Shown piece after piece: positions 2,426 through 39,769 of a DNA stretch of 40,937 bases. The position numbers and the translations under genes are program-made. The notes beneath the pieces are model-generated. The model saw only the letters and a list, made by a program, of their open reading frames with translations, ran no database searches and was not told the DNA's origin. Each line of letters opens with the position of its first letter. The stretch's first letter is position 1. The DNA is from a virus, in IMG/VR virus record IMGVR_UViG_3300028372_000231, positions 1 to 40,937 of that record. One strand, 5' to 3'.

Positions 2426-2439
2426 TGAACCTAGGTTCA
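2426..2439. promoter_or_regulatory. Palindrome TGAACCTAGGTTCA before tail gene
   Basis: Perfect 14-bp palindrome between the hairpin and the next gene, 14 nt before the preferred start. It is one of 15 invariant-arm copies in the window. Operator or RNA-hairpin function is inferred from repetition and placement. Confidence 0.6.
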
Positions 2440-2452
2440 AATGGAGATGAAA

Positions 2453-5400
2453 ATGAAAGTAGACAGTAAGAGATTTCCAAAGACGAATATCGTTCCAGGG
2501 CAGGGTAGCTTGGTCGAGGTTGCCTCCCAGTCTATCGTTGATGATAGCTGGGATACGTTGTTTCTGGACGATGGGCCAGCTAACATCTTCACCTCTTCTA
2601 ATGTTATTGGAGGAGTGACAGTTGTAGAGGACCGGAAGTTCGAGACCCTTTACGGCACCGCTTCGGGGGTTGTGTGGGGAGCACCTGTCAGTGTAGATAT
2701 TATCAATGACCGGATCGAGATGCGTAGCAGTATGCATATCAACGCCGGTCCAAGTGGTGACTTTTACGACAATGTGAATCGCTTGACCTTCAATGATAAC
2801 ACTGATGCGCTTTACGCCTTCAGGGTTCTGTATGAGAGAGTAGATGGATTCTCTCGTTCGAGGATCAGGGTCGAGGAGTATGGTCAGAATACATTTTTGG
2901 ACATCCCGAAAACTGAATGGATTGAGTTCTCGGTTGTCTTCGCTGGCGACCTGACGTTCCACATCGGGTACAGGGTCAACAGGGAAGACCGCTTCACCTA
3001 TGTTACCACCAGTCAACTTCCATCCACTTATACAGCCAACCCCGGTACTGTAAACGAAGAGATTCAGAACAGAACAACACTGACTGGTATAAACCTAGAC
3101 TTCGAAAGTAGTACGGGTACGACCTTTACTGTCGGCGCAGCCGAGTTCAACCCGGTGCTAGAGGGCGTAAGGTGTAAGACATTCCACGAGCTTCCTGAAT
3201 GCATCACCAAGGTTGAGGATGGGGCTGTCTACTATGTGCCTCATGCTTATCCCGGTGAGTTCAATATTGTTCTGAACGGCATTGGCTCGCACTTAGGCTT
3301 GTCAGACCAGGGTGTCTTGGAGTGTCTCGACTATTCCACTTTGGATGACTCGATTAAGTTCGTGACATCTCCGGTGTCTAACCTGTACGATGACGCCAAC
3401 TCGCAACTACTGTGCCGACAGTTCGCCAGGGAAGGCCCCGGCAACCGTGGTAATATGATTGCGAACATGCAGTGCTTCTGTGATGGCAGCGCTCAAGACG
3501 GCGGCACAACTAGTGTGGTGACCACGGAAGGTGGAAGCATTGGTGTCAATGTGGGCAGGGGTCACCACCCCCGGTTTATGCTTGAGAACGATGGGGCGCT
3601 GTACGGAGAGAACTTCGACATGCAGCGAATCCATGATGACACATCATTAGCAGCTGGAGATGACATCCTGAGACTGCGGTCTACCAAATTGAGTGACCAA
3701 AGTAGAGTCTACTTCGGTGTTCAAGGTGTGGCCAAGGGTGTGGACGAACAAGTCCTGATGGAGTTCGAGTTTGAAGACCCGACCTCTGGAGGCTGGACAG
3801 GTGGACAGTGGAAGATTACAGGGGTGGACAATACAACGGACATAAGTAGCGCCAACCCAGTCACCGCCGGACCCGGCCAAGTATCTTTGAAGCCGGGTGT
3901 CTACGAGTACACCGTGGAGAATGCTGACGGAGGGGTCTTCGTTGGAGCGCTCGTAGACGGGAACTGTCTAGGGAGGTTCACACTTGACGACCGATTCATT
4001 GGAGGTTGGGGGTACGGCGCAGACGACGTTGAACCTGAGTTCAAAATTAGATTTGAGGTGAAGCAGAATCAGGGTGACCTGATTACCTACGTGTTTGACA
4101 AATGTGCTGGCCAGATGTCCAAGTATGAGACCGCCACTGGTGACGTATCCCTCGTCACAGGCAGTGTGAGCGCCGTAGAGACGGTTGATGGCAATGTAGC
4201 GGTGTTCTACCAGGGTCTTACGGACGGTGACGTCTACGGCTCTCGTAGCCGTGTTATAAAGTACAAGATTCTTGACGTTGATACAGGCGTGTTCTCTCAG
4301 GCTTATTCAGTGAACCTTCCGGAGAGTCTAAACTTCTGGTTACCCGGCGACTGGTACACCCATGCTTTTGACGTTGTACAGACAGATGATGGTCTGGACT
4401 TTATACTTTCAGTAGAGACAGACGAGAGAGGTTTCGACCGACTGCTTCCAGACGGGTCCACCACTGAAGAATGGGCCAGATACATGCCCTTCCTCAAGGG
4501 TGGGTTCTTCGTTGTGTCAGTTGACAAGGGTATTGAGTCGGGTGGGTTCGACGCAACCGATCCTGATAGTGTCACCCAAGTCCCACTTGAGAGTGTGGAC
4601 AACATGCACACAGGTGAGCTTGAGTCTGACACGTTGTTCAGTGCTTCTGGCAGGTTGAATAGCGCAGCACCAGGATTCATTGATGCTGGCTTTGACATTG
4701 AGAGGGGTGAGACTGTTCTATCTGTCCTTAGCCACTTGAGGCGTGCACCAATGGTGGTCGCCGGAAAGGGCGCCAGATGGAATGAGGTGGCTTTCCCGTA
4801 TCACTTCGATCTCAAGGGTGCATACCGCCACGGATTTACGGAGACTCAGGGAGAACCGGGGACACTGGTTCAGACCGGCGAAGGCTCACCTACCAGTGCT
4901 GCTAGGTATACAGGCATCACTTCTCTTTCTGCTTCTTACGGCTCTGACGGGATGGTCTATTCCATTGCGACATGCGGCAGAAGCTATAAGGATAGTTTCC
5001 ATGCGTCGAGGGATTGCGAGATTGGAGTCATTGACCCTGAAATCAGTGTGGACTCCTTCATCTATCTGGATGGGAACTTGGTTCCTGCTGACTCTGCTAC
5101 GCAATACCGGTTTGAGACCCTGCCATTCCTCTGCTCCTACGAGGCGCCCGATGGTAGTAGTATCACGCCCATTTCTGCTTCTATCAAACGGGATGACCAC
5201 TATCTTGTAGCCTCGTTTGGGATTGGGACATCCGGCCAGCCGATTATATATCAGAGTGGCCATCAGGATACGTTCCCTTTCGGCTTCCCCTTGGAGGAAG
5301 TCTTACTCAAGGAGGCCGATAGTGCTAGTGGGTTCACCAGCCCTTTCACCATCTCGTCTAACGTGGAGTACAGTCCTGAAGGGTATCAGATGCCAACAGG

Positions 5401-7177
5401 TCTGGCAGGTGGGTCCACTGACTTGCCGTCCAGTATTGCTCGACAGTTTGAACCCGAGACCGATTACAACGACATGGCTCACAAGGGTTACAGGGCTTCG
5501 GCTGTTGTAGAAGCTAGCGGTGTCCTGACCGAGCCTTACCTGATTTCCGTAGAGGCGACCACTGACGAAGGTTCTGGCCTCACTGTAAATGCGTTCATCG
5601 AGTACGACGGCTCTGGCGCTGTCTGTAGAGTCATAGAGCCAGGGGGCATATCAGACGGAACAGTGATTGGCTCTTTCGCCAATGTAGGCACAGGGGTTCA
5701 AGAATACAGCATCTTGGTTCAAGCTCATGATATAGCAGACGGACACCAACGTGCTAAAGTGATGTTCGTGAGGAAGACCGGTTCGTTCATGTCTGCTAAC
5801 GGATATGACTACCGTGTTGAGTCAGAAGTTGTTGAGGGTGTTGTTCTTGGGGATATAGGGCCACCTGAGAAACCGGGAAGTATCGAGATATCTTCAGGTG
5901 AGAATACCAATGCTGGGACGGCTGAGAGGCTGGTTGTTAAGCAGTTTGGTTGGTCTCCATTATCTCATAGCGGGTACACTCAATCTGATTCTATCCTATC
6001 CCCAGACGGGACAACCATTGTCCAGGGTCGAGATAACGAACACTACCACCCCGGTGACAGATGGAGGCGGTTCGACGACTCTAATCTGTTCGGCTCGGTT
6101 GGGAATCCCTATTATGGCTACAGGATGGCCAGTGTAGAGAGGGAGAACAGGTCGTTCACCTATCATTGGCCAAATGGATTCAGGTTCGACTTCTCTAAGC
6201 GTTACGCTCGTAAAAGAGACCTGTGGTTCTTAGACAGACGGAAGGTGACAAACGTTGGTGACCTAGACATGGGGAAGATCCATGGAATGTACACCACTAT
6301 GTCTGACACTGAGGATGTATTGATTTGGGCGGATGCTCAAGATTCAGACCTGGGGAAGTTCGACGTTGACACATTCATCGTTACGGGTTGCAACATACCG
6401 GAGGTGGATATCATCGTCAAAGACGCAATCGGAGACCCCTGGACTACAATTGGCAAGATCGACCTTCGTAAGTACGACTTCAAGAGGGGTGAATTACAGT
6501 ACACCAGTCGGAACAACAAGGGTGTTATCCATATTGATTCGGCTGATATTGATGAAGGTAGGTTCCAAGAGTTTCAGCACTACCATTATTTCGATGGTTA
6601 CCGTGCCGCAAAGGTAGGTCGCTCAAGTGGTCCGCGCATCTGGCTGGAGGAAGCTGTGGGCATGGGGGATGGTCCACAGGTGCCAACCTATGTCTTCGCC
6701 GACAGGTCTGCTGAAGTTTTAGATTCTGTGGTCTCCCATCGTTTCATCGGTATAAGGTTGAAAGCCTTTGATACTTATGAGGGTTTCTTCAAGCTTCATG
6801 CGTTTGACTTTGGTAGGGTTCGCGAGATCCCATTGCTCTATAACTACGACCGAGGCTCTGGGATGTCTTACTTGGCGGAGTCGGATCCTCATTTTGTTTT
6901 CGATGAGCAACCCTACTCTAAGCCTAGCAGTCGCCTTCAGCGAGAGTTTGAACTTGAGTTCAGTCTTTTTGAAGCTGACATGCTTGCGCGTGTGAAAACT
7001 ACTGCTGCTGATCTATCCCTCAACAGGAAGCCTATCTGGGTTCTCGAAGATAACAAGAGCTACAAGGAAAAGGTGCACCTGTGCTTTGTGAGTGGTGATG
7101 TCGAATGGACACCGCTCGTAGATGAAGATGGCGATTCGTATTACAAGTTGAGTTTTAATCTTAGGAGTTCTGAATGA
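2453..7177 (+). CDS. Giant tail tip / receptor-binding region protein
   Basis: About 1574 residues. Three in-frame ATGs stand at 2441, 2447 and 2453; the last has GGAG 6 nt upstream and is preferred. No single known family is recognised. The sequence is acidic, rich in Gly, Asp, Ser and Thr and beta-strand-like, with no membrane segment. Residues about 80-235 and 1020-1110 resemble jelly-roll carbohydrate-binding or laminin-G-like folds. The C-terminal ~150 residues are more compact and probably dock onto the tail. Position directly after the tape measure and overlap with the next giant gene (ATGA at 7174) place it in the tail-tip complex. Likely role: a structural or adhesin component contacting the host surface. 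The structural class is fairly secure; the exact role is inferred. Confidence 0.65.
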   Translation: MKVDSKRFPKTNIVPGQGSLVEVASQSIVDDSWDTLFLDDGPANIFTSSNVIGGVTVVEDRKFETLYGTASGVVWGAPVSVDIINDRIEMRSSMHINAGPSGDFYDNVNRLTFNDNTDALYAFRVLYERVDGFSRSRIRVEEYGQNTFLDIPKTEWIEFSVVFAGDLTFHIGYRVNREDRFTYVTTSQLPSTYTANPGTVNEEIQNRTTLTGINLDFESSTGTTFTVGAAEFNPVLEGVRCKTFHELPECITKVEDGAVYYVPHAYPGEFNIVLNGIGSHLGLSDQGVLECLDYSTLDDSIKFVTSPVSNLYDDANSQLLCRQFAREGPGNRGNMIANMQCFCDGSAQDGGTTSVVTTEGGSIGVNVGRGHHPRFMLENDGALYGENFDMQRIHDDTSLAAGDDILRLRSTKLSDQSRVYFGVQGVAKGVDEQVLMEFEFEDPTSGGWTGGQWKITGVDNTTDISSANPVTAGPGQVSLKPGVYEYTVENADGGVFVGALVDGNCLGRFTLDDRFIGGWGYGADDVEPEFKIRFEVKQNQGDLITYVFDKCAGQMSKYETATGDVSLVTGSVSAVETVDGNVAVFYQGLTDGDVYGSRSRVIKYKILDVDTGVFSQAYSVNLPESLNFWLPGDWYTHAFDVVQTDDGLDFILSVETDERGFDRLLPDGSTTEEWARYMPFLKGGFFVVSVDKGIESGGFDATDPDSVTQVPLESVDNMHTGELESDTLFSASGRLNSAAPGFIDAGFDIERGETVLSVLSHLRRAPMVVAGKGARWNEVAFPYHFDLKGAYRHGFTETQGEPGTLVQTGEGSPTSAARYTGITSLSASYGSDGMVYSIATCGRSYKDSFHASRDCEIGVIDPEISVDSFIYLDGNLVPADSATQYRFETLPFLCSYEAPDGSSITPISASIKRDDHYLVASFGIGTSGQPIIYQSGHQDTFPFGFPLEEVLLKEADSASGFTSPFTISSNVEYSPEGYQMPTGLAGGSTDLPSSIARQFEPETDYNDMAHKGYRASAVVEASGVLTEPYLISVEATTDEGSGLTVNAFIEYDGSGAVCRVIEPGGISDGTVIGSFANVGTGVQEYSILVQAHDIADGHQRAKVMFVRKTGSFMSANGYDYRVESEVVEGVVLGDIGPPEKPGSIEISSGENTNAGTAERLVVKQFGWSPLSHSGYTQSDSILSPDGTTIVQGRDNEHYHPGDRWRRFDDSNLFGSVGNPYYGYRMASVERENRSFTYHWPNGFRFDFSKRYARKRDLWFLDRRKVTNVGDLDMGKIHGMYTTMSDTEDVLIWADAQDSDLGKFDVDTFIVTGCNIPEVDIIVKDAIGDPWTTIGKIDLRKYDFKRGELQYTSRNNKGVIHIDSADIDEGRFQEFQHYHYFDGYRAAKVGRSSGPRIWLEEAVGMGDGPQVPTYVFADRSAEVLDSVVSHRFIGIRLKAFDTYEGFFKLHAFDFGRVREIPLLYNYDRGSGMSYLAESDPHFVFDEQPYSKPSSRLQREFELEFSLFEADMLARVKTTAADLSLNRKPIWVLEDNKSYKEKVHLCFVSGDVEWTPLVDEDGDSYYKLSFNLRSSE
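4030..4043. repeat. In-gene palindrome copy TGAACCTGAGTTCA
   Basis: Copy of the TGAACYTRRGTTCA family inside the first giant tail gene. It is read in frame as part of V-E-P-E-F-K. Confidence 0.55.
6949..6962. repeat. In-gene palindrome copy TGAACTTGAGTTCA
   Basis: Family copy near the 3' end of the first giant tail gene, read in frame as F-E-L-E-F-S. Confidence 0.55.
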
Positions 7178-10100
7178 TTAGGTACACGTTCAACTATCCC
7201 ATCGAAACCAAGTTGGTGAATGAGGAGGGTTCTTTCGAGGGGCCTCGTTCATTAGACCCACCGGCTGGGATCGATTACGAGGCAAGAGTGGCCAGGGTTG
7301 GCAGCGAGCTTGTCAACGCCTCTCAAGTTAGGCTGTCGCATAAGGACGACTTTGTGAGCGGTGTTCACAGGGTTCGACAGAATCCAACACTGGAGGGGTT
7401 ATTCCCAAGGGCGTTCTCGGAACCGTTCCACCTTGAGTACGCTTACGATACCGGCCCGCTGATTGGGCAAAGTGAGAAAGGTGTTCAGGACTTCCACCCC
7501 TTCGTGGTCAATGCCTTTGAAGGGTCGGACCTGTACTCCAAGAATCTCAAAAACATGAGGGTTACTGAGTACGAAGGCTCTGTCTACATGGTGGGGGAGA
7601 TTGCAGACCCCATGATGCGGGTCCACTTGTACAAGATGGATTCTGACACCCTGGAGTTTAATCTGGTCAAGGTGTTTGACGAGGTTGTTGTTGACGATAG
7701 CACTAGCAATCAGGAAGAGGGTTCCCCTGACCTGTGTGTCCACGACGGGGCGCTGTACGTTGCTTACAGGTCTGCTGACAGGGGAGGGGACTCAAGTTCG
7801 ATTGCGGTCTGGAACTCTGAAGACTTGGTTGACTGGCGACACGATGTCTTCCCTGTGGAGAATACCTTTGGTGCTCTTTTCACCGATTTCCGTTTGAGGA
7901 TGGCGTCGGGACTGGACTCCCTGTGTATCGTCTTCTACGCCACTCGCCAAGTGTATAACCAGTGTGCCATACTTATACAGTTGCGGGACATGAGGTCGAT
8001 GATCTCAACCGATGGGGGAGGGGAGTTCAGATTTAGCCACGATAGCTACTCCTCGTTCAATCGTTCTACGGGCACATCCGAATATACCGAAGCCATAAGA
8101 CACAATGCCCTGTACAACTATTTCATCCCTAGCAACAAGAGGCCGTCTGCACCTGAAGAATACTTCTGCTCAGTTAATTTTGACCTGTATTTTGACGAGG
8201 CGATGGCTAGCTTCGTGGTGGTCAAGGGTGGAGATCCAGATGGGATGCAGGATGGAGCAGGGGACAATAACACAACTTACTTGATGGCTATCAAGACGGT
8301 TGATGGTAGCTTCCTAGACTGGGAACCATGTCTGAATATGAAGACTGATGATATGGTTGCTAGGAGCGACTGGTCTGACGACCGGGACTCCCCTTCTAGG
8401 GAGGTCACGGATGTGTGCGTCGTGCCGGGTGAGACAGTCAGTGACATCTTTGTCACCATGGGTGATGGGCGTCAGGTTGCACACGCCGAGTTCTCATTCG
8501 TAGGTCGCAACCTATTCAAACCGGGTACAACCCGAACTAAGCCTTTTGCGTATGGAAAGAAGTCTCACCCTGAGTATGTCTTTGTGTCCACCTACATGGA
8601 TTCAAGGGCGGCTGGACTGGTGACCACAGGTAACCCAAGTTGGGCGTACGAGTCGGGCCTGACGAATAGTGTAAGCAACCCGTACGCCTACGCTTCTTCT
8701 TGCAGGTGGCGAAACCAGATTGTGACCATTGTGGATATAGATGGCAACAGCGCCAACCCTGACTCCAACTCCAGAAGGTTTATGTCTTTGAAGGCACCAA
8801 TGGGCGCCGTCACGGAACTCTATCAGTACCAGTATGGTTACTGCAGGTACTATGACGGGCTTGAAGACTGGGGATGGGGGTCTCAGGTATTAGGCAGCGG
8901 TTCAACGGGTCGGACGGAGTTCAATGGTGATATCTACAATGTATGCACCATCAATGCCACCAATGATGAAGCCTACTACAACAGCGGGAGCTTCTTTGAG
9001 AAGCTGGGGTCTGACAACCACTTCAAACTGAAGTTCCAATTCCTTTCTGAAGCGTTGCCAGTGGGTACCGGTTCGATTCACTTTCTTGAGGTTTCTCTAC
9101 CGGGCACCGAGGACGCCTACCTACAGTTGAGGCTCTATCAAGATGGAACGGTCTCACTTATTGATGAGTATGGTTCCATTGTTCAAGATGTAGCACAGAC
9201 AACAATCGGGACTCCTCACGAGCTACTGCTTTGCTACCACTTGCCAGTCGGCGGCACCGAGAGCGAACTTGTGGCCTGGAACCGTGCTGTTGGTGAACGA
9301 GACTGGGCGAGTCACACAGTGGTCCCCTATTCTGGTGTATTCAGAGATCGGGGCTATTATCCCGCTCTCACTGGCGAACCAAGAATTAAGCTTGGGGTGT
9401 TTAACTATGGTGGCTTTGGTGATAACGGTCCTATCAGGTTTGGAGTTGGGGACGTTCACGCAAGCACACTTGATGAGTCTTTTGAACCTGGGTTCACAAG
9501 TGTTATCGGCACGACTCGAAGGGGTAGCTCTGAGGGGATTCGTCGATACGGGACAGCTAGCACAGCCGATCCGCTTCAGGTTTACAGCAATAGAATAAGG
9601 CTTCACGATGGGTCGATCATCGAGATTGATGGGGGTCGACTCGATGAGGAAGCTGAGGACGTGTTCAGGTACGGGCACAGTTTAACCAGGAACAGTGCAA
9701 GGAATCTGGTCAACGGCATGGCTGATTCTGTTTACGACTTTACACCGGTTTGGGACTCCAGTCAGGGATACATAGACTTCATCTTCGAGAATGTGGAGAT
9801 GGGGATTTTTGACATGGTGAGTCTGGTGAATATCAGTGGTGTCTACGACTTCACTTTGTTTTGTGGGGAGTACGATCCTGTTACGGGAGGGTTCACCACT
9901 GGGTCTCAGGAAGAGTACAGCATACCCTATCTGGACCTCAATCACGTCTCAACAATCGGTAGAACTGTTGTAGTGGAGGAGACCTTCGATTCGAGTATCC
10001 TCAAGGGGAACTCGGTTATCGCTGTTGACCCTTCCACTTCGCCTGTGACACCGGTGTACCACTATCTTGTGGTCGATAACTATGATGGGATTTTAGAGTT

Positions 10101-11922
10101 GGATAGGCCGGTCGGAGATCTGACCAATCTTGAACTCAGGCTTATGTCTGAGGCGGCGTCATTTGATGTCCCCGACAGGTTCAAGAATCAGATCTACCCT
10201 CACATTGCTGTCAGGTTGTATTGCCCTAGTGATAACGCAGTCCTGAGCATGGGTGAGATTGTACCCGGTAGGCTTGTGGATGTCTCAAACTACATGTCTG
10301 ATGCCAGTGAGAATGTGTCATCTAACTTTGACATCGTAGAGTCGGACTATGGGTTCCTGTTCCCTTCTATGATTGGGGATGGGAACATGGCGCGGGAGTT
10401 GACGCTTACCGCTGATGGTATCGACCACTTGAGAGGTGATTACCAAGAGTTGTTCTATGTTCTGAATAGTCTTTGGCTGTCCGGAATGTCTTTCCCATTG
10501 GTCATTGGACATGGGCGCGACGGGTATGGTGGACTGACTGAGTACGCGGTAATCAACGGTGGGTTCAATACTGCACCATCTGCTAATAGCTTCTCGATTG
10601 AGATACCATTGCTTTTGGATGACTGGAATGTCAAACCCGGTTCTACCAAGTTCAACTCACCTCCGGAAATCTATGAGATGAGTGCCGACACTACACACGC
10701 CATAGTCAATCAGAGTGTTATTTTTGATTCCGTGGTGGCCGACCCTGATGGGGACGTAGTTACCAAGTCCTGGGACTTCGGCGATGGGTCGGTAGTTGAG
10801 ACCCCGTTCTCCGTGACCAACAGCTTCAGTACGCAGGGTGTCTATGAGGTTGTTTTGACAGCTTCAGACCCGAGCGGTGCTAAAGATGTTGAGAAACTTG
10901 TTGTGTATGTGGAGTATGAGCCGGTTGACACTTACACTATGGCGTTTGTCCCTAGTCCGGTAGAGATCGGCACGGTCGCTGATGTAAATGTCCGCTCCGT
11001 TGGTGCTAGCGGTTTCCTGGTTGAAGATAGTACGACCGAGGTCACGATTTCAATTGGGTCACAAACTGATGTGGTTCTGATTGACAGTAACAATGCCCCC
11101 CAGTCGTCCATCACTAGGACTCTGATGAGGGGTGAAGCTCAGTTTGGGATAGAGTCAGATGTTGTGGGCGACTATACGGTAACCCTTACGGATACATTTG
11201 GCAGGTCGATCACGAAGACTGTTTCGTTCGATGACCCTGTGGAGTTCGACCACTACACACTGGAGATGGATCCTAATTTCCCGTATGTTGGAAACGACTT
11301 CTACATGGCTGTGGCCTTCCGGAATGCTTTTGGAGATCTCATTGGCCTTGCTGATGGGTCTACAGTCAGGTTGACCAGTCTTGATGGCAATACACATGTA
11401 TTTATTGATGGTAACGGTCAGCAGGTGACCACCATTGATGCTGTAGTACAGTCGGGAATGACTGCTACAGTTCAAGCCACGACATTTGTTGAGGTTGATG
11501 AATACTTGGTCGACACTACCAACCTGGACGATCCGGTCACCTTTCCAGATCGACAGTTCGCGCTTCCAATTGGTCCATCGTATAACACGTTCGACCACTA
11601 TGAGGTGTCAACGAATCCCTCTTTGCCAACAGAAGGGGTGGAGTTTGACATCGTTATCGAGGTCAAGAATATCCATGGTGACACCATCGACAACTACGAC
11701 GGTGAATCCCTCTACCTTTACCTTGAGGAAGGCAACGGTGACCTTACCCTTGAGTTCAAGGACTCCCAGTCTAACTGGGTAACTGATGTGACTGTTCAGA
11801 TTCAGAACGGAGTGGCAACAGTAGTAGCAAGAGGTGTAGAGCAGGATTACGTCTTGCTTGTTGATCCAACACAGTTGAGCGACCTTACGACCAGTTCGTT
11901 TGACCTCTCTGTGTACGAATGA
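7174..11922 (+). CDS. Giant tail protein with propeller, PKD and Ig-like modules
   Basis: About 1582 residues, starting in an ATGA overlap with the previous stop and preceded by AGGAG. Residues about 120-480 look like a beta-propeller: they contain sialidase/glycosidase-like stretches such as SEDLVDW, but no catalytic set can be assigned. Residues about 600-760 resemble a laminin-G or lectin jelly roll. Residues about 1167-1249 are a PKD domain (the DPDGD...SWDFGDG core is visible). After it come three Ig-like repeats beginning VDTYTMAF, FDHYTLEM and FDHYEVST. The mix of sugar-binding-like and Ig-like modules is typical of phage adhesins. No signal peptide or transmembrane helix is seen. It probably forms a tip fibre or adhesin with its neighbours. 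Confidence 0.7.
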   Translation: MIRYTFNYPIETKLVNEEGSFEGPRSLDPPAGIDYEARVARVGSELVNASQVRLSHKDDFVSGVHRVRQNPTLEGLFPRAFSEPFHLEYAYDTGPLIGQSEKGVQDFHPFVVNAFEGSDLYSKNLKNMRVTEYEGSVYMVGEIADPMMRVHLYKMDSDTLEFNLVKVFDEVVVDDSTSNQEEGSPDLCVHDGALYVAYRSADRGGDSSSIAVWNSEDLVDWRHDVFPVENTFGALFTDFRLRMASGLDSLCIVFYATRQVYNQCAILIQLRDMRSMISTDGGGEFRFSHDSYSSFNRSTGTSEYTEAIRHNALYNYFIPSNKRPSAPEEYFCSVNFDLYFDEAMASFVVVKGGDPDGMQDGAGDNNTTYLMAIKTVDGSFLDWEPCLNMKTDDMVARSDWSDDRDSPSREVTDVCVVPGETVSDIFVTMGDGRQVAHAEFSFVGRNLFKPGTTRTKPFAYGKKSHPEYVFVSTYMDSRAAGLVTTGNPSWAYESGLTNSVSNPYAYASSCRWRNQIVTIVDIDGNSANPDSNSRRFMSLKAPMGAVTELYQYQYGYCRYYDGLEDWGWGSQVLGSGSTGRTEFNGDIYNVCTINATNDEAYYNSGSFFEKLGSDNHFKLKFQFLSEALPVGTGSIHFLEVSLPGTEDAYLQLRLYQDGTVSLIDEYGSIVQDVAQTTIGTPHELLLCYHLPVGGTESELVAWNRAVGERDWASHTVVPYSGVFRDRGYYPALTGEPRIKLGVFNYGGFGDNGPIRFGVGDVHASTLDESFEPGFTSVIGTTRRGSSEGIRRYGTASTADPLQVYSNRIRLHDGSIIEIDGGRLDEEAEDVFRYGHSLTRNSARNLVNGMADSVYDFTPVWDSSQGYIDFIFENVEMGIFDMVSLVNISGVYDFTLFCGEYDPVTGGFTTGSQEEYSIPYLDLNHVSTIGRTVVVEETFDSSILKGNSVIAVDPSTSPVTPVYHYLVVDNYDGILELDRPVGDLTNLELRLMSEAASFDVPDRFKNQIYPHIAVRLYCPSDNAVLSMGEIVPGRLVDVSNYMSDASENVSSNFDIVESDYGFLFPSMIGDGNMARELTLTADGIDHLRGDYQELFYVLNSLWLSGMSFPLVIGHGRDGYGGLTEYAVINGGFNTAPSANSFSIEIPLLLDDWNVKPGSTKFNSPPEIYEMSADTTHAIVNQSVIFDSVVADPDGDVVTKSWDFGDGSVVETPFSVTNSFSTQGVYEVVLTASDPSGAKDVEKLVVYVEYEPVDTYTMAFVPSPVEIGTVADVNVRSVGASGFLVEDSTTEVTISIGSQTDVVLIDSNNAPQSSITRTLMRGEAQFGIESDVVGDYTVTLTDTFGRSITKTVSFDDPVEFDHYTLEMDPNFPYVGNDFYMAVAFRNAFGDLIGLADGSTVRLTSLDGNTHVFIDGNGQQVTTIDAVVQSGMTATVQATTFVEVDEYLVDTTNLDDPVTFPDRQFALPIGPSYNTFDHYEVSTNPSLPTEGVEFDIVIEVKNIHGDTIDNYDGESLYLYLEEGNGDLTLEFKDSQSNWVTDVTVQIQNGVATVVARGVEQDYVLLVDPTQLSDLTTSSFDLSVYE
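9483..9496. repeat. In-gene palindrome copy TGAACCTGGGTTCA
   Basis: Family copy inside the second giant tail gene, read in frame as F-E-P-G-F-T. Confidence 0.55.
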
Positions 11923-11933
11923 ACCTAGGTTCA
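11920..11933. promoter_or_regulatory. Palindrome TGAACCTAGGTTCA before tail-tip gene
   Basis: The perfectly symmetrical version of the family. It overlaps the stop codon of the previous gene and lies just before the AAGAAGGAG ribosome binding site of the next gene. Confidence 0.6.
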
Positions 11934-11947
11934 AAGAAGGAGTATTT

Positions 11948-17886: not shown

Positions 17887-18287
17887 GAATTCAAGGCGCT
17901 AACCGAGAGACATTGTATGGGATCTTCAAGTCCGTTTACCGGGATGTTGTAGGTAGAGGTTTCAAGTTTGAGACCGGGGAGAAGAAGAGAGTTCGACGGG
18001 TTTTCAACAGGATTGCTGAGAGTCTTGGTGAGCGTGACGAGTCCAAGTTCAAGTCTGTTCTTACTGTCTTCCGGAAGTACACCGAGTTGCAGATGAAGAC
18101 ATGGCTACAGTGGGAGAAGAGAGACAGGGGTAACCTGCTGGGATTCCTGGAGCGCGGCGATGAGCCTGAGATTTACGCTCGCGGAGAGTTGAAGAAGGAC
18201 GATGATATCCATGAGAATGACTCTACCGGTTCTGCGGCACATGATATCGCAGGTCGTACAACAGCGCATGATTGGGATGACTTTTGA
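17883..18287 (+). CDS. Hypothetical protein between helicase and helicase loader
   Basis: 134 residues, translationally coupled to the helicase through ATGA. The N-terminal ~85 residues are basic and helical (many Arg and Lys). The last ~40 are acidic and low-complexity (KKDDDIHENDS...HDWDDF) and probably disordered. No family is recognised. A basic body with an acidic tail and placement between helicase genes fit a small DNA-binding or replisome accessory protein, but this is inference from context only. Confidence 0.7.
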   Translation: MRIQGANRETLYGIFKSVYRDVVGRGFKFETGEKKRVRRVFNRIAESLGERDESKFKSVLTVFRKYTELQMKTWLQWEKRDRGNLLGFLERGDEPEIYARGELKKDDDIHENDSTGSAAHDIAGRTTAHDWDDF

Positions 18288-18298
18288 ACTTGGGTTCA
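18285..18298. promoter_or_regulatory. Palindrome TGAACTTGGGTTCA before helicase loader gene
   Basis: Family copy overlapping the previous stop codon and ending 3 nt before the ATG at 18302. The only purine-rich stretch at Shine-Dalgarno distance (GGG at 18292-18294) lies inside its right half. Confidence 0.6.
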
Positions 18299-18301
18299 AG
18301 A

Positions 18302-22171: not shown

Positions 22172-22185
22172 TGAACTTAGGTTTA
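22172..22185. promoter_or_regulatory. Variant palindrome TGAACTTAGGTTTA
   Basis: Differs from the family by one base in the right arm (GTTT for GTTC). It sits between the lipoprotein stop and the start of the next gene, the same placement as the perfect copies. Confidence 0.5.
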
Positions 22186-23378: not shown

Positions 23379-23777
23379 GGGGGCGCTCTGGTTTCGACGT
23401 GAGCGCTGAATCCGTACAAGCGTGCAGTGGTGGCCTTTCACACTCTAAACACTGGCAACCGTTCAATTGGCAACGATAAAGCTGAAGTCGTGAATCTCGC
23501 GGATTACCGTGAGTCCACTCAGGAAACTGAGGTTCGCGCAGCCGCATAAGCGGCGGTCCAAGGGAGTTTGCCCGTAGGTGAACTTGGACCTACGACATAC
23601 GGGTTGCGGTTCAAGAATGGGATAATCCCCTATAACCATCTTGAACCTAAGTTCATGCTTAGGGGCACCAGTTCATCCCTGTCTGTGGGGTCGTTCTGGT
23701 GTGAAAACACAGACTATGCACGAAGAAAGTACGTGAGGATCGCATCGCGGACGCGGGTTCGATACCCGCCGCCTCCA
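23379..23777 (+). ncRNA. ssrA: tmRNA (one-piece transfer-messenger RNA)
   Basis: Starts GGGGGCGCTCTGGTTTCGACG, the conserved tmRNA 5' end. It ends with T arm GCGGG-TTCGATA-CCCGC and acceptor CGCCTCC plus discriminator A, which pairs fully (one wobble) with GGGGGCG. The tag frame reads from GGC at 23469 to TAA at 23547-23549, encoding 26 residues that start GNDKAEVV and end EVRAAA, a protease-tag-like C-terminus. tmRNA is charged with alanine, enters stalled ribosomes and tags the truncated product. About 400 nt is the usual one-piece length. The resume codon GGC is unusual (Ala GCA is common), so the precise first codon is less certain than the tag end. CCA is not encoded. Confidence 0.92.
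23642..23655. repeat. Palindrome copy TGAACCTAAGTTCA inside tmRNA
   Basis: Family copy in the pseudoknot-rich 3' half of the tmRNA. Its CCTAAG can instead pair with CTTAGG just downstream, so it may serve tmRNA folding. Confidence 0.5.
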
Positions 23778-24514: not shown

Positions 24515-24518
24515 TTAT

Positions 24519-25674: not shown

Positions 25675-25701
25675 GCACCCGAAAGGGTGCAATTTTATTT
25701 T
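25675..25701 (+). terminator. Intrinsic terminator of the RNA cluster
   Basis: GCACCC pairs with GGGTGC around a GAAA tetraloop, followed by a T-rich tract (AATTTTATTTT). It closes the tRNA/tmRNA cluster. Confidence 0.9.
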
Positions 25702-25714
25702 GAACTTGAGTTCA
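25701..25714. promoter_or_regulatory. Palindrome TGAACTTGAGTTCA after the cluster terminator
   Basis: Family copy (16 bp symmetrical with flanking T and A) directly after the terminator T-run and just before the AAGGAA of the next gene. Confidence 0.6.
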
Positions 25715-27567: not shown

Positions 27568-30500
27568 AGTTATGGTCGATTCAGAATTACACGACCTATT
27601 CTATCAATTCTGGGGTAATGAACCCTGGAGACTGGGCGAAGCAAGCTGCTGAACTTGGGTACAAAACACTGGGAGTGAGCGACAAACAAACCCTTGGCGG
27701 GTTGCTCCAATTCCAGAAGGCGTGTCAGAAGAATGACATCAAGCCTGTACTCGGCGGCGAGTTCGCAATTACTCCGGACCTCGACATTCGGGAGAAGGAT
27801 AAGAAAGAGAACGTCGAAGGTGTACTCCTACTGTACGCCAAGAATGAAGAAGGTTTGAAGCACCTGATTCAACTCAACAACGTGAGCGTCAACCGCGATG
27901 ACGGCGGCGCGTTCTACTTCATGCCCCGGCTGGACATCGATGCCATTCGAGAGCGTGCTGAAGGACTCATCTGTGTTGTACCGGTGGAGGACGGTTGGGG
28001 TCGCAAGACCAAGCCTAACACCACTGAACTGGATGAGCTTCACAAGATTGTAGAGTTGAACGAAATCTTCGGTGAAGACCTTTACCTGGGAATCAATCCA
28101 CTGTCGGAGAACCGACCTGCGCGACTGAAGAACAAATCCATTACTCGTTCTTCCGCGCTGGATTCCATCAAGAAAGTCTTCACATTCAACGCCCATTACC
28201 ACCAAGAGGGATACGACCACTTGTACGATGTGGTTCGGGGGATGGATGGGGGAAGAATCAAAGACAACCTTCCACGGCGCGTAAGCCAAGGGTTCCTACC
28301 TACGCTGGAGGAAGTGAAAGAATCCATTTCACAAAAACACAACTACATTGAAGAAGGTGTCCTCCAGGAATGTCTGGAGAATCTCGACGAGGTTGCTGAG
28401 AAGTGCAACGCTGAGATTGAAACCGGTAAGTACATGATGCCCAAGGCTGAGCTACAGACTGGCTCACTCAAGGGTGACATCCTTAAGTTTATCGGTGAAG
28501 GATTCCTCAAGAAGATATGCCCCACTTTGAACCTGAGTTCAAACTTGGCGAGCATCCTTCAACTTGAGGAGTTGCTGTCTGAGCAGGACTTGCTCGACGA
28601 GCGGCCTCACGAGCACGTGGCGAAGGAGGAAGACCCTTCGACACTGCTACCCTTGACTGAGTATGTCGAACGCCTCAAGCACGAGGTGAAGATCATCGAG
28701 GAGCTTGGGTACCTTGACTACTTCCACATCATTCGAGACGTGTGCAGGCACGTTGACGAGGTTGGGTTGGGTCGAGGGTACGCTCGTGGCTCTGCGGCAG
28801 GCAGTCTTGTTTCATACCTGCTCGACATCACGAGGGTTGACCCTCTTCGGCACGGACTGATCTTTGAGCGTTTTCTGAACCCCGACCGTAATGACCTTCC
28901 TGATATTGACCTCGACTTTAGTGTTGAGGCAAGAGATGAGGTCAAGAGGTATTGCAGGGAGCGCTGGGGAGAGGAACATGTACTCTCCATCGGAACCTAT
29001 GGGCGTCTGAAGGTGGTTAGCGCCATCAAGAATATCGCTCGGTCAAATGGGTATGCTGTCCCCTCGGTTGACGCCAAAGGCAACACCACTCATGTGCAGT
29101 ACAGTTACGCACGTCTGAATGACATTCTGTCCAATACACATGCGAAGGCTACTTCTCGTGGCCGTGAAGAACTCGTAGAACGTCTTGATGAGAATGACAA
29201 GTTCCAGCAGTTCTACCAGAAGCACGAGTACTGGATTGAAAATGTAGTGATGCCCTTGATGGAGACCATTACAGGGACAGGGGTTCACGCCGCTGGTACA
29301 CTCATCACTCGTGAACCATGGTTCGACTGCATCCCGGTCAACTACCATGCGACCAAGGGTGTGGTTACTCAGTGGAAGGATAGAGACTGCGAGGCGGCTG
29401 GACACCCTAAGTTTGACTTCCTGACGGTTGATGGTGTGTCGATTGTTGACCGCGCCAAGCAACTTATCAAGGCTCGACAGGGGGTGGAGTACCCGCCACT
29501 CGAAGAGATCCCGTTGAATGACTCGAAGACTCTTGAACTCTTCACCAAGGTGAAGACAAAGGGTATCTTCCAGTTCAACACATGGTCTCAGCGTAAGTAC
29601 TTGAGGCAACTCAAACCTACGACATTTGATGAGCTTGTGGCGGCTGTTGCTCTGGTTCGTCCTGGCCCGATGGCTGTGGATGCCCACATTGACTTTGCTG
29701 ATATCAAGCATGGTCGAAAGAAGGCTGAGTACGACCATGCTGACCTCAGACCAATTCTAGGCGAGACTCATGGCCTGATTGTTTATCAGGAACAAATCAT
29801 GAAGATCGTTCAGGCTATCGGAGGTCTCACTCCATCCGAAGCGGATTACGTCCGTAAGGCATGTGGTAAGAAGAAGATCGATGAGATGCGCAAGTGGCAC
29901 AGCGTGTTTGTCGAGGGTGGTCTGAAGAACGGGTATGATAAGGAATTGCTCGACAAGCTGTGGGGCAAGATTGTTGAGTTCGCTGAGTACGGGTTCAACA
30001 AATCTCATGCCGTTGCGTACACACTTCTTAGTTACGTCCAAGCCTTTATCAAGGTTCGGGAACCTCTGGAAGCATGGTGCGCTGTCCTGAAGTATTCGTC
30101 TGACGACGACTCGAGGGATAACTCCGCGATGAAGATGAAGTATCTCCTCAAGGAGAACGACATTGAAATCGTGTACCCGAATATCTTTGGCTACGCTCCG
30201 GACTTCGAGCCGGTGCCCGGTCGTAACGCCATCTTCTGGCCGCTACAGCGGATCAAAGGAATTGGCCCGTCCGTAGTTGAAGAACTATGCAAAGAAGACC
30301 GTCGCTCCTTCGACTCATTGGAGGAGATGATTGAGACAGTGGAAACACGGCGCGTCCACAAGGGTGTTGTATCAAAGTTGATTCAGTCTGGGTTCTTTGA
30401 CCCACTGGGTGAGCCTTGGGAAGTCGCCGAACAGTACTTCGGAATCCGAGATGAAAACGGACGAAGAGATGATGGAATCCCATTCGACTTAGCCCATCGC

Positions 30501-30956: not shown

Positions 30957-30959
30957 GAA

Positions 30960-31643
30960 ATGGCAAAAGTATTGTTTGAAGTACCTGAAGTTGTTCTCGA
31001 CCTAGACGAAGGCGAACGTGGTGTTGCCATGATGGAGCACCTCACTGACGCCATCGACCATGGTGACCAAGGAATCCTACTGGCAGACCTTGACGGTCAA
31101 CTCCCCGAAGCCCTTCTGGATGCGATGGATATCGTGCTGGAGGACGACGGCGAGGCCAAGCAGGTGAACCTGAGTTCAATTCTGGACGCCCTTTCACTTG
31201 TTGAGCACGACCCAGTTCCGGTGTTCAAGCTTCTGCTGAAGGTCCGGCACGGTGTCGGCAATCTCGCGTACTCCCTTGAGGAGTATTTCAAGAAGACTGA
31301 GGACGAGTTCCGAATCTGGCGCTCGGAGCAAGAAGCGTTGTACGCACAGAAAGACAACCCAGAGAACCCCCTTGTGAAAAAGGGGTCCAAGATTACCGGG
31401 AAGTCTATCGATGCAGAAGTCCGGACCCAGCCTGAGTACGAGAAGTACAAGGCTGAAATCGCCGAGACGGAAACCCGCAAGAATATGTTGTGGACCGCTC
31501 GTGGCACAGTGGACAAGGCAATCGAAATCGCTCGCCTGATGGTGGGCAACCAAGCTTCTATCTATGAAGCGAGTCGCAAGCTCCAAGAGGACGGCGGCGA
31601 CATTGAGGAAGTTGCGGATCAAGGTGGATTCCACCTGAAGTAA
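30960..31643 (+). CDS. Hypothetical protein, possible UvsY-like recombination mediator
   Basis: 227 residues, preceded by AAGGAAAG. The N-terminal ~90 residues are acidic and helical. The C-terminal part has KGSKITGKSIDAEVRTQPEYEKYKAE followed by a helical ARGTVDKAIEIARLM segment, weakly reminiscent of the UvsY pattern (short conserved acidic-basic motif, then helices). Position between polymerase and SSB/RecA genes, as in T4-type recombination clusters, supports a mediator that loads RecA on SSB-coated DNA. The resemblance is low and the call is tentative. Confidence 0.72.
   Translation: MAKVLFEVPEVVLDLDEGERGVAMMEHLTDAIDHGDQGILLADLDGQLPEALLDAMDIVLEDDGEAKQVNLSSILDALSLVEHDPVPVFKLLLKVRHGVGNLAYSLEEYFKKTEDEFRIWRSEQEALYAQKDNPENPLVKKGSKITGKSIDAEVRTQPEYEKYKAEIAETETRKNMLWTARGTVDKAIEIARLMVGNQASIYEASRKLQEDGGDIEEVADQGGFHLK
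31165..31178. repeat. In-gene palindrome copy TGAACCTGAGTTCA
   Basis: Family copy inside the gene before SSB, read as V-N-L-S-S-I. Confidence 0.5.
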
Positions 31644-32882: not shown

Positions 32883-32895
32883 ACTGGACTTCTCT

Positions 32896-32909
32896 TGAAC
32901 CTAGGTTCA
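32896..32909. promoter_or_regulatory. Palindrome TGAACCTAGGTTCA before RecA-like gene
   Basis: Perfect symmetrical copy ending 4 nt before ATG 32914. No Shine-Dalgarno exists outside it; AGG in its right half is the only candidate. Confidence 0.6.
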
Positions 32910-32913
32910 AAAC

Positions 32914-34092: not shown

Positions 34093-35171
34093 TGAAATTG
34101 TTAGTGACCAGTGATGAACACTTCCAAAACAGTAACTCGAAGTTCAGGCTGGACCGAGAAGGGGTGTCAGATCTTCTCAAGGCTCAAGTAGCCTACTATG
34201 AGATGTTGGCCGACGAATTGGAGTCCGGTGATTATGACGGCTTCATAAGCGGCGGGGATACGGCTGACGCCGCTATCCTCGATCCCATCACGGCACACCA
34301 CATGAACAAGGCGATCAAGCGCATCGTCGAGGCAACCAACTTCCACCTCTTTCTGGAGGGGAACCACTGCGTGTCCGACAGCCGATCCCTGTTCACTGTG
34401 CTGGGGACTTTGAAGGAGTTGAGGGACGACTTGACCGTTGTCCTGAGAGAAGGGAAAGTCATCTGGGAACTACCCAGTGGAGAGTATGTGACATTTCACT
34501 GCTTCCCGTATCAGTCAGACTACAGGCTTCTGGAAGAACGGATTGCCATTAGTAATGATCTGGTTGACCCGAATGATGGAGACCTCGATATCATGTTGTT
34601 CCACTTTGGTGTGAAGAATGCCATGTTGGACAACGGGTTCGAGTCTCCATCTGGGGTGAACCTAAGTACAGAAATGGTGAGTAACTTCGACATCTGTCTG
34701 GGTGGTGATTACCACACTCGTCAGAACGTCCACTCCCATGTTCACTACATTGGCGCTCCGTTCGACCTGAAGTTTGGCGAACACTACAGGCGTGGGGCCA
34801 TGGTTCTCGACATCACACCTGATGGGTATGACATTGACTATATCGAGAATCCATATCAGTACGATATCCTCAAGCTTTCCCCCGAGGAGTTTTTGTCGTA
34901 CGACGGCCACAACTCGAAGACGATTGTGAAGATCGATGGAGAGCCGACGCCTGAGCAGCGTGTACAGATTGAGAAACTGAAGGGGGAATTTTACAATGTG
35001 TCAGTGCCCCGAGTGAGAGCAAAGAGAGACGATGAGGATATTAGGGTGGACGTGATTGAAGGCGATAGCCAACGAGACGTTGACCTTGTGCGGGCACAGA
35101 TGAAGAAGAATGATGTCGATGATAGAGTGGCGGTTAGAGCCGTCGAGCTTTTCGAGGAAATACAGCGTTAG
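34092..35171 (+). CDS. SbcD/gp47-like nuclease subunit (metallophosphoesterase)
   Basis: 359 residues, T4 gp47 size (about 340). Phosphoesterase motifs in order: SDEH (7-10), GGD (54-56), GNHC (90-93; most members have GNHD or GNHE), LFHFG (169-173) and GGDYH (204-208). The partner is the SbcC/gp46-like ATPase at 37210. Together they process DNA ends for recombination. The Cys in place of the acidic residue of motif III is odd but the His of GNH is kept. Confidence 0.85.
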   Translation: MKLLVTSDEHFQNSNSKFRLDREGVSDLLKAQVAYYEMLADELESGDYDGFISGGDTADAAILDPITAHHMNKAIKRIVEATNFHLFLEGNHCVSDSRSLFTVLGTLKELRDDLTVVLREGKVIWELPSGEYVTFHCFPYQSDYRLLEERIAISNDLVDPNDGDLDIMLFHFGVKNAMLDNGFESPSGVNLSTEMVSNFDICLGGDYHTRQNVHSHVHYIGAPFDLKFGEHYRRGAMVLDITPDGYDIDYIENPYQYDILKLSPEEFLSYDGHNSKTIVKIDGEPTPEQRVQIEKLKGEFYNVSVPRVRAKRDDEDIRVDVIEGDSQRDVDLVRAQMKKNDVDDRVAVRAVELFEEIQR

Positions 35172-35186
35172 CTGGAGTGAGATCAA

Positions 35187-36285: not shown

Positions 36286-36293
36286 GAGCAGGC

Positions 36294-36683
36294 GTGTTCT
36301 ACCTGCTGTTTCAGGTGGCCTTAGCCATCTGGATCATTTACGTGTTGATTGATTATCTAAGAAGAGGTTTCCCCATGAATGGCGTCCGATACAATACACC
36401 CACCAAAGTCCAACGGCTCTTGCAGCCAGCGGTCACCCACCTGAGCCGAGTCCGCTTCGTCACCACGACGAGACAGCGTGACCGGCTCGTTGAACTCTAT
36501 GACAACGCCTGCATTGAAGTTGATGAATACCTCGCGGCGGTTCACGACCTCCAGCACCTCGCTCAAGAGAAGCTGGTTGAACCTAAGTTCAAGTCCAAGG
36601 ATCATACCTTGGTCCCCAAGCTTACCACGCGTGGTCGATACTTCGTTGTAAACTATCTCAAAAATCAGAAGGGGGCGGCGTGA
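36294..36683 (+). CDS. N-terminally membrane-anchored protein after hydrolase
   Basis: 129 residues from GTG 36294 with AGGAG 3-4 nt upstream. Residues 2-22 are hydrophobic (FYLLFQVALAIWIIYVLIDYL), then a basic hinge and a soluble ~100-residue helical domain. One TM helix directly after a hydrolase gene could suit a holin- or spanin-like factor, but nothing specific supports it. It overlaps the next gene by 4 nt. Confidence 0.68.
   Translation: MFYLLFQVALAIWIIYVLIDYLRRGFPMNGVRYNTPTKVQRLLQPAVTHLSRVRFVTTTRQRDRLVELYDNACIEVDEYLAAVHDLQHLAQEKLVEPKFKSKDHTLVPKLTTRGRYFVVNYLKNQKGAA
36578..36591. repeat. In-gene palindrome copy TGAACCTAAGTTCA
   Basis: Family copy inside the membrane-anchored protein gene, read as V-E-P-K-F-K. 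Confidence 0.5.
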
Positions 36684-39114: not shown

Positions 39115-39428
39115 ACTGGGAGATGGTTTCAGATTTAGTCTACTACTCAGGACTCATTTGCTGGATTTTAGTGATTGGCTATGGGTTGAAGAACTGGGTG
39201 GATAGCAAGCTCAACCACTGGCGGCGTTGTAGAGATGCTGAAGAAGAGTTGTACCAGTTGGCCAACAAGACCCGTAAGACTCTTATCTCTGCCAAGATTG
39301 CTATCAGGTCTTCTTACGAGGACCGTCCAACGAGTGGGTATGCTAAAAGAACTCTCGAAGAGATTGACAAACTACAGGAAGAAACAGACTGGACCTTCCG
39401 TGAGGAAGAGTGGAGGAGTATACGATGA
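39111..39428 (+). CDS. Hypothetical N-terminally anchored protein
   Basis: 105 residues from TTG 39111 in a TTGA overlap, with GGAGG 5 nt upstream; ATG 39123 has no usable site. Hydrophobic span at about 8-25 (LVYYSGLICWILVIGYGL), then a helical, charged cytoplasmic-type domain. The stop overlaps the next start (ATGA). Function is unknown. Confidence 0.65.
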   Translation: MNWEMVSDLVYYSGLICWILVIGYGLKNWVDSKLNHWRRCRDAEEELYQLANKTRKTLISAKIAIRSSYEDRPTSGYAKRTLEEIDKLQEETDWTFREEEWRSIR

Positions 39429-39769
39429 TCGGCCATGAACTTAGGTTCAAATGTGAGAACTGCGGCGAAGACTTCGCAAGCAGTCGGTATTTTAAATTGA
39501 AGAATAACGGTGATTTTGTAGGTTACAAGGTCTACTGTCAATGTGGAGAAGGAGTATTAAATGATGACGGCGAGCTACCGGTTCAAAAGGGAAGGGCACA
39601 CAACCCCTTACCAACCAAGCGTGCTCACCGAGAGAGGGCGCCACTGGTGCCCGCGGGACTGAATAAGCTGCTGGACAAGGAAGCGGAACTCCGTCGTCAA
39701 AATCAAGAGGAGAAAGACGATGGCGAAGACGCATTGGAAAGCAGCGCAACAGAGGGCGATGGTTCTTGA
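39425..39769 (+). CDS. Zinc-ribbon protein
   Basis: 114 residues from ATG 39425 with GGAGGAG 7 nt upstream. CENC (10-13) and CQC (38-40) with strands between form a compact zinc-ribbon-like unit. The C-terminus is basic then acidic (KRAHRERAPL...EEKDDGEDALES). It may bind nucleic acid or a replisome partner. The gene carries a palindrome copy from its fourth codon. Confidence 0.62.
   Translation: MIGHELRFKCENCGEDFASSRYFKLKNNGDFVGYKVYCQCGEGVLNDDGELPVQKGRAHNPLPTKRAHRERAPLVPAGLNKLLDKEAELRRQNQEEKDDGEDALESSATEGDGS
39436..39449. repeat. Palindrome copy TGAACTTAGGTTCA at the start of zinc-ribbon gene
   Basis: Family copy 11 nt after ATG 39425, read as H-E-L-R-F-K. Unlike the intergenic copies it lies just inside the coding region. 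Confidence 0.55.

Follow-up and report, generated by a model that had tools for sequence, protein, structure and literature searches.

IMG/VR virus record IMGVR_UViG_3300028372_000231 is a 40,937-base stretch of viral DNA, analysed here over its whole length and referred to as the window, in which a 14-bp palindrome recurs within and between genes. The genes that we assigned all lie on the + strand and encode the end of the tape-measure protein, large tail-region proteins, helicases, a primase, a DnaE-like polymerase, guanylate kinase, and UvsX, SbcC/D, RuvC-like and DnaB proteins; a transfer-messenger RNA (tmRNA) and tRNAs are also present. The palindrome has TGAAC and GTTCA arms around a YTRR centre (TGAACYTRRGTTCA) and was found in 15 exact copies on the + strand, at every start listed in the initial annotation of this DNA, compared with 0.00 expected from 100 dinucleotide shuffles. 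A core-free search for TGAACNNNNGTTCA returned the identical 15 copies at zero mismatches, so the YTRR core was not imposed by the search.

Dispersal of the palindrome in the window

Among the 5-N-5 palindromes of the window, the TGAAC-N4-GTTCA family stands well above all others (15 copies versus 0.2 expected). Both dyad arms are present in all 15 exact copies, and the dyad extends to 16 bp in 6 of them. Four copies with one mismatch and a YTRR core bring the total to 19: one with a TGGAC arm (15781), one at 22172, and two with a GTACA arm (27650 and 34657). The initial annotation had listed the variant at 22172 and overlooked the other three. These variants were selected for the YTRR core; two near-copies with one mismatch and without that core, at 29312 (TGAACCATGGTTCG) and 23339 (AGAACTTCGGTTCA), may be chance matches or decayed sites and are excluded from all counts.

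The mean gap between copies is 2.1–2.6 kb, and the copies are distributed more regularly than at random (19 copies, coefficient of variation 0.45, P = 0.0003; 15 exact copies, 0.53, P = 0.010). Non-coding DNA is over-represented, with 6 of the 15 exact copies (P ≈ 7 × 10−4) and 7 of all 19 (P ≈ 4 × 10−4) falling in the 8.0% of positions that are non-coding in the gene set that we chose. The initial annotation had placed six copies between a stop and the next start; these gap copies are real, but it left out the copy in the tmRNA gene at 23642, which makes seven. Codon usage, against which the copies were also to be judged, does not produce those that were tested. When the synonymous codons of 16 window genes were shuffled 12 times, with encoded proteins unchanged outside short overlaps, all six copies in those genes were lost every time and no TGAACYTRRGTTCA arose, although one shuffle gained a single TGAAC-N4-GTTCA with a different centre; the remaining nine copies lie outside the shuffled genes. 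The six in-gene copies are therefore not coding by-products. At the level of sequence, the array is more than chance and is not caused by the encoded proteins.

All 19 copies lie on the + strand. Among the non-coding copies, TGAACCTAGGTTCA at 2426..2439 stands at the junction of the tape-measure gene and the next tail gene, right after a GC-rich hairpin and 13 nt before ATG 2453 (the chosen start; two in-frame ATGs are closer). The same sequence at 11920..11933 overlaps the stop of gene 7174–11922, just upstream of the Shine-Dalgarno sequence of the next gene, and at 32896..32909 it lies 4 nt upstream of ATG 32914, in the gap that precedes the gene for the UvsX-like recombinase. A copy of TGAACTTGGGTTCA at 18285..18298 overlaps the stop of gene 17883–18287, 3 nt before ATG 18302; the variant TGAACTTAGGTTTA at 22172..22185 is in a gap, 13 nt before ATG 22199; and TGAACTTGAGTTCA at 25701..25714 follows a hairpin, 13 nt before ATG 25728. 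Four non-coding copies end 13–14 nt before an ATG, adjoining the Shine-Dalgarno sequence; in this count the start of the gene following 11920 had been set one base too early, and for 2426 the start was picked among in-frame ATGs. The seventh, TGAACCTAAGTTCA at 23642..23655, is inside the tmRNA gene.

The six in-gene copies that codon shuffling removed are TGAACCTGAGTTCA at 4030..4043 (12 of 12 shuffles) and TGAACTTGAGTTCA at 6949..6962, both in gene 2441–7177; TGAACCTGGGTTCA at 9483..9496 in gene 7174–11922; TGAACTTGGGTTCA at 18718..18731 in an IstB/DnaC-like gene (18284–19132); and TGAACCTGAGTTCA at 28528..28541 in the DnaE-like polymerase gene (27564–30956) and at 31165..31178 in gene 30960–31643. 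The other in-gene copies are the variant TGGACTTAGGTTCA at 15781..15794 in gene 11900–16294, TGAACCTGAGTTCA at 22715..22728 in gene 22479–23129 (a weak YfbR-like match), the variant TGAACTTGGGTACA at 27650..27663 in the polymerase gene, the variant TGAACCTAAGTACA at 34657..34670 in an SbcD-like gene, TGAACCTAAGTTCA at 36578..36591 in gene 36294–36683, and TGAACTTAGGTTCA at 39436..39449, within the first codons of the gene with ATG 39425.

The phage tmRNA (23379–23777), which encloses one copy of the palindrome, has the tag GNDKAEVVNLADYRESTQETEVRAAA. Downstream of it, between 23780 and 25640, several tRNA-like 3′ halves (T-arm and acceptor, GGTTCGA...) that ARAGORN did not call were seen by eye; some are short or have long inserts, for example at 23780–23838 and 24458–24625, and they may be odd or degenerate tRNAs.

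Exchange of arms between relatives

One viral record, G091, shares synteny with the window across tail and replication genes (31–58% identity), with agreeing tetranucleotide use, and shares synteny with the records G001 and G002 across head and tail genes (26–61% identity). On the basis of this shared synteny, we treat the window, G001, G002 and G091 as one phage group, the records of which are fragments. A de novo palindrome scan of G091 found TTAAC-N4-GTTAA 11 times, together with one TGAAC-type copy. Three junctions hold a palindrome at the same place in both genomes, with the arms exchanged: window positions 2426, 11920 and 18285 correspond to G091 positions 26868 (TTAACCTGGGTTAA), 37062 (TTAACCCAGGTTAA) and 42729 (TTAACCGAGGTTAA), respectively. 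One of these sites directly follows a hairpin common to the window and G091. In an automatic mapping, 3 of the 10 mappable window sites (of 19) had a G091 site within 60 bp, compared with 0.19 expected by chance (P = 0.0015). A fourth same-place pair links G001 12077 with G091 14736 (1 of 7 mappable G001 sites, P = 0.089). The alignments show homologous junctions at which the window and one relative have exchanged arms.

Sites are also conserved as DNA inside two genes of a related pair of contigs, G008 and G016. Two in-gene sites are identical at 14 of 14 positions in genes whose DNA identity is 71% and 62% (protein identity 60% and 57%), and a third matches at 13 of 14; the conserved sites include degenerate Leu and Ser codons. 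Elsewhere, one gap site is common to G003 and G004 (P = 0.028), and the phages RHph_Y1_11 and RHph_TM16 share 5 of 6 mappable sites, though these two may simply be close relatives. DLP5 shared no significant number of sites with RHph_Y1_11, RcZahn, G016, VH2 or JP1, and the G003/G004–G107, G107–G109 and RHph–JP1 comparisons, which had few or no mappable sites, yielded none.

Arrays with the same design in other phages

We scanned a viral collection for two extended TGAAC-type forms, which returned 98 and 103 stretches, and made record-wide counts on 6 and 50 records. Multiple copies occur in G001 (8 in 26 kb) and G002 (3), which share a stretch and its site spacing, and in G003 (8 in 77 kb), G004 (7), G007 (3), G008 (3) and G016 (12 in 98 kb); G006, G032, G035 and G054 have two copies each and the 462-kb G046 has three. 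In the second count, 43 of the 50 records hold one TGAAC-type copy, and these single occurrences are probably mostly due to chance. A scan for TGAAC-type sites was what brought these groups to light, and their number is therefore no guide to how frequent such arrays are overall.

The same 14-bp design of two 5-bp arms around a 4-bp centre is present, with other arms, in further phage groups, to go by their sequences. G107 and G109, whose portal proteins are 54–55% identical to that of G003, have TGCAC-N4-GTGCA 7 and 6 times, and three other portal relatives of G003 (G095, G099 and G104) have TGAACC-type sites with different centres. The form TGAACNNNNGTTCA is present at least once in 11 of the 22 relatives counted and, among those related to G003 by portal protein, in 9 of 18; a clear 14-bp array was not evident in G105, G108, G110, G111 or G102. 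Two of these portal relatives have other repeats, CTAG-5-CTAG 12 times in G102 (L355–L356) and CTAG-8-CTAG 10 times in G108 (L337–L338). G016 (L185–L190) has two families, TGAACT-2-AGTTCA and TGATCT-2-AGATCA, each with 12 sites after removal of overlap between pieces. Between G016 and the Stenotrophomonas phages DLP5 and Summit, portal protein identity is 46%; these two Stenotrophomonas phages each have 31 copies of TGCAA-N4-TTGCA with a mean gap of 3.1 kb and a spacing much more regular than random. Whole-record counts of the TGCAA type are 17 in RHph_TM16, 10 in VH2_2019, 33 in JP1 and 47 in L338C, and the parts read of RcZahn and RHph_Y1_11 hold 9 and 15; VH2 has 33 sites as TGCA-N6-TGCA. 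(MMB025 was read for 80 of 105 kb, GBK1 for 40 of 45 kb, VH2 for 80 of 82 kb and G111 for 80 of 84 kb; RcZahn, RHph_Y1_11 and RHph_TM16 for 100 kb each.)

Even spacing is found in G091 (P = 0.0012), DLP5 (P ≤ 5 × 10−5), VH2_2019 (P < 5 × 10−5), JP1 (P = 0.00025), L338C (P = 0.0002), RHph_TM16 (P = 0.025) and RHph_Y1_11 (P = 0.038). Mean gaps are 2–4 kb in the window, G001, G091, DLP5, Summit, VH2, JP1 and L338C. As a background, 169 other loci of at least 8 kb were examined; 4 have a strong 5-N-5 family, one of which is an artefact of masked N.

Other routes to relatives returned little. Megablast of both halves of the window against 50,697 phage records gave no match, and no relative emerged from queries with two other window proteins. 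The motif is absent from distant DnaE relatives (30 loci, about 22–37% identical), with TGAACYNNRGTTCA in 0 of 27 records, and eight named phages hold a single TGAACNNNNGTTCA, in one of them. G091 was not among the DnaE matches, which means that other relatives of the window could have been missed. Two distant DnaE-bearing phages have dispersed palindromes of their own, TAATAA-4-TTATTA 8 times in L016 and TATTCA-5-TGAATA 5 times in L026. We did not count the 22 CGACGTCG octamers of phage BeatusComedenti as an array, as no conserved flanks were seen by eye. Searches of the open-access PMC library turned up no paper that, in its accessible part, describes 14-bp arrays in these phages, and spellings of the TGAAC-type palindrome matched no paper.

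Orientation of the centre and identity of the arms

On the coding strand, the asymmetric cores of the window read YTRR and never YYAR in 9 of 9 exact copies, as the initial annotation had observed; the other 6 have a directionless TA centre. That annotation went on to suggest an oriented role in RNA, in which a 5–6-bp hairpin with a YURR tetraloop would act in the transcript on translation or processing. The facing of all asymmetric copies with the coding strand, the copy in the tmRNA gene and the four gap copies close to an ATG would suit such an element. However, in G004 the centre reads CA at all six sites to which a direction could be assigned by eye. In G016 it is CA at 5 of the 6 TGAAC-type sites that could be assigned and TG at the three asymmetric TGATC-type ones. 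DLP5, with almost all of its genes on the + strand, has 20 CA, 10 TG and 1 TA centres, and L338C and G091 use many different centres. The preference for TG over CA is a habit of one phage and is not general, which weakens a role in RNA or at start sites; an RNA element needs a fixed loop and so loses its main support. Arms and loop also differ between phages while the position stays, one G091 hairpin has a predicted stability of −0.3 kcal/mol compared with −3.5 to −4.4 kcal/mol for window hairpins, and 12 of the 19 window copies are inside genes. We consider an RNA element very unlikely. The same in-gene majority means that association with start codons, a parallel also drawn in the initial annotation, is not the rule.

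The arms contain GAAC-N4-GTTC and had been likened to a Gram-positive SOS box, which would make the copies LexA boxes or decoys for host LexA. The core of such boxes is R N R Y, which appears in none of the 15 exact copies (all are Y...R), and no exact copy has the full CGAACRNRYGTTYC-type core and flanks; moreover, the TTAAC, TGCAC or TGCAA arms of relatives are not those of LexA sites. Scanning genomes for TTTGAACYTRRGTTCAAA gave 84 stretches, and each of the 80 bacterial loci read has one copy and no second. This count also does not support an element of host chromosomes, which we had considered. Muricauda/Allomuricauda account for 6 of the 80 loci (L213, L216, L230, L243, L270 and L278) and Algoriphagus for 4 (L210, L215, L254 and L267). 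Binding by LexA is thus highly improbable, and the wrong core, the changed arms and loops, and the in-gene majority led us to set aside the LexA box, the RNA hairpin and the start-associated sequence as main explanations.

A candidate binding protein

Several isolates with arrays encode a candidate binder. The best solved-structure match of the DLP5 ParBc protein DLP05_107 (284 amino acids) is Noc (7ng0 and 7nfu; E ≈ 1.4 × 10−9, residues 20–167), followed by Spo0J. A six-frame profile search found long ParB/Noc-like frames (261–328 amino acids) in DLP5, Summit, RHph_Y1_11, RHph_TM16, RcZahn, JP1, VH2_2019 and BeatusComedenti, and 7 of these 8 isolates have an array. L338C, which has an array, encodes weaker homologues, FCL-2 and LW32 have short homologues and no 14-bp array, and VibMS01, MMB025 and GBK1 have neither a ParB-like gene nor an array in the parts read. 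The ParB-like protein matches 202 phage records; eight of the 40 listed were taken and seven scanned, with Microcystis phage Mwe-JY13 left out. The association between array and ParB-like gene is suggestive only, because the lineages are partly related and it is confounded by shared descent.

In G016, the putative ParB/Noc-like gene (L185 7375–8230, − strand) comprises two reading-frame pieces, and a TGAAC-type site lies immediately before its start. An alternative assignment of its ParB_N match to a short nuclease-type protein was dropped, as the longer DLP5 relative shows it to be the N-terminal part of the ParB/Noc-like gene. In G004, L143 9000–9947 (− strand) encodes a ParB_N protein with a methyltransferase-like N terminus (by eye); G003 has no ParB_N match. 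A search for the binder with hhalign found nothing; this negative is weak because the gene set missed the ParB-like gene of BeatusComedenti and the N-terminal piece of G016. One G002 protein has helix-turn-helix matches, all sub-threshold.

A probable genome-wide set of protein-binding sites

We conclude that the palindromes, spread over the genome, are probably bound as double-stranded DNA by a single dimeric protein, most likely one that the phage encodes. The switching of arms at kept positions argues for a trans-acting binder whose specificity changed and was followed by its sites. Sites occur across structural and replication genes, and mostly within them, which suggests, less strongly, that the protein acts on the whole genome. 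The most likely use, by analogy, is as points at which a protein that acts along the genome is nucleated; the binder may thereby silence, condense or anchor the DNA. In the DLP5, Rhizobium, Rhodobacter, Vibrio and Agrobacterium phages the candidate would be the ParB/Noc-like protein.

A more speculative proposal, to which we give limited credence, is that these dispersed and often evenly spaced palindromes are loading sites for a phage ParB/Noc-like CTPase clamp, or an unrelated equivalent. Clamps would spread from the sites and silence, shield or anchor the DNA, and the site word would be rewritten genome-wide along with clamp specificity, forming a self-recognition code. With sites every 2–4 kb, as in the denser arrays, such clamps would reach most of the genome; spreading would be fullest there, while the site word would drift between relatives.

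The chief rival to a protein that acts along the genome is a phage repressor acting as in the stoperators of L5 and other cluster A phages, with binding to prophage sites at and between genes blocking transcription and silencing the genome. The initial annotation had drawn this parallel, which is fair for placement: there are many sites genome-wide, gaps are favoured, many sites lie just before a Shine-Dalgarno sequence (window and G016), and in this window the centre is oriented with transcription. DLP5, which has an array, and its close relative DLP3 form lysogens, DLP5 as a phagemid, according to the accessible portions of the reports (PMC7326821, PMC5834331); DLP3 and DLP5 encode ParB-domain proteins, and 'palindrom' does not occur in the accessible part of the DLP3 paper (PMC7326821). 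However, the parallel fails for the form of the site. Stoperators are asymmetric 13-mers bound by a monomeric repressor (PMC9283540, in part), whereas the window sites are dyads, 12 of the 19 copies are in genes, and orientation is reversed or mixed in G004, G016 and DLP5. We regard such a repressor as possible but doubtful.

Sites for a phage replication, recombination or packaging protein would fit the distribution over the whole genome and the DnaB, primase, DnaE, UvsX, SbcC/D and RuvC-like proteins of the window. Initiators and terminases, by contrast, work from a single site or a few clustered ones, and no such protein was shown to co-vary with the arms; this explanation is unlikely.

Several observations weigh against a dedicated genome-wide binder, or against the ParB/Noc-like candidate. 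The initial annotation had proposed to compare intergenic with in-gene conservation: the three junction sites are common to the window and G091, but no in-gene site is, by alignment and automatic mapping (window site 15781 by automatic mapping only), and three alignable in-gene sites are not kept between G003 and G004. The sites of G004 are clustered, those of G016 and RcZahn are not evenly spaced, and for G001, G003 and G107 evenness falls short of significance; mean gaps are 5–10 kb in the RHph phages, RcZahn, G003, G004, G107 and each G016 family. The non-coding copies cluster near starts, which a purely genome-scale role does not require. In Pfam, DLP05_107 matches ParB_N only, with no recognised DNA-binding domain; BeatusComedenti has the long gene and no array, and VpasPP24 a weak array and no ParB-like gene. 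The window, G001/G002, G091, G003, G107 and G109, of which the window-group records are fragments, yielded no ParB-family protein: the Pfam profile ParB_N is absent from G000–G003, and a six-frame profile search of the window group was also empty. A ParB protein that would be the binder throughout all groups is accordingly not supported. HTH_ParB was found in 0 of 13 records and HTH_3 in 0 of 10, the latter also counting against a stoperator-type repressor.

Comparison with known systems

Published systems are compared here from the accessible parts of the cited reports. The start-associated sequences of cluster K mycobacteriophages are likewise repeats near start codons, but they are non-palindromic and nearly all are at starts (PMC3203893). 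The 21-base repeats of the T1-like phage TLS, present in about 20 copies, with function unknown and likened to stoperators by their authors, differ in being direct and non-palindromic, with 18 of 21 intergenic and upstream of start codons (PMC11447400). SPBRE of the Bacillus prophage SP-beta is an element of about 15 bp that is bound at several places in the phage by the phage protein MrpR; there, however, the bound sites are in promoter regions and the binder has a tyrosine-recombinase fold (PMC10516654).

Clamp-loading sites of the ParB family are likewise short palindromes. Noc loads at a short palindrome, the NBS oligonucleotide of which contains ATTTCCCGGGAAAT (PMC8429893), and sliding allows KorB to reach promoters as much as 1.5 kb away (PMC11790492). 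The 14–16-bp palindrome described here has the size of such sites (about 13–16 bp), and isolated phages with arrays encode a Noc/ParB-like protein: a cognate ParB-family gene is on the same replicon in DLP5, Summit, RcZahn, the two RHph phages, JP1 and VH2_2019, and in two pieces in G016. Unlike those systems, the window's group yielded no ParB-family gene, and the phage proteins lack a recognised Pfam DNA-binding domain. Both array and candidate gene are present in isolates whose hosts are non-pathogenic, namely RcZahn (a Rhodobacter capsulatus phage) and the Rhizobium phages. Should the candidate prove to bind the sites, DNA-sliding CTPase clamps would have a new setting in phages, and phages an evolvable code by which to recognise their own genome.

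The nearest published kind is the 17-bp dyad repeat of cluster O mycobacteriophages, described in 2015, of which Corndog has 34 copies with a predicted dimeric binder and function unknown; the site was not found in other mycobacteriophages, as stated in the accessible part of the report (PMC4351075), which makes no mention of even spacing. Those repeats are also dyads, dispersed in gaps and genes and mostly off promoters, with a variable centre, and cluster O encodes a protein with a ParB-like domain (PMC4351075). The window motif likewise has a variable short centre between dyad arms and many copies in and between genes. The two differ in layout, 7-3-7 (TGTTCGG-N3-CCGAACA) in cluster O and 5-4-5 (TGAAC/GTTCA) in the window, and in their relatives: five close relatives in cluster O keep the same arms at similar positions (PMC4351075), whereas the relative of the window has other arms. 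The arrays suggest that the cluster O kind is broader, with several phage groups sharing a 14-bp design, many of them with even spacing. At least one group changes its arms between relatives while keeping junction positions, which makes a trans-acting binder testable.

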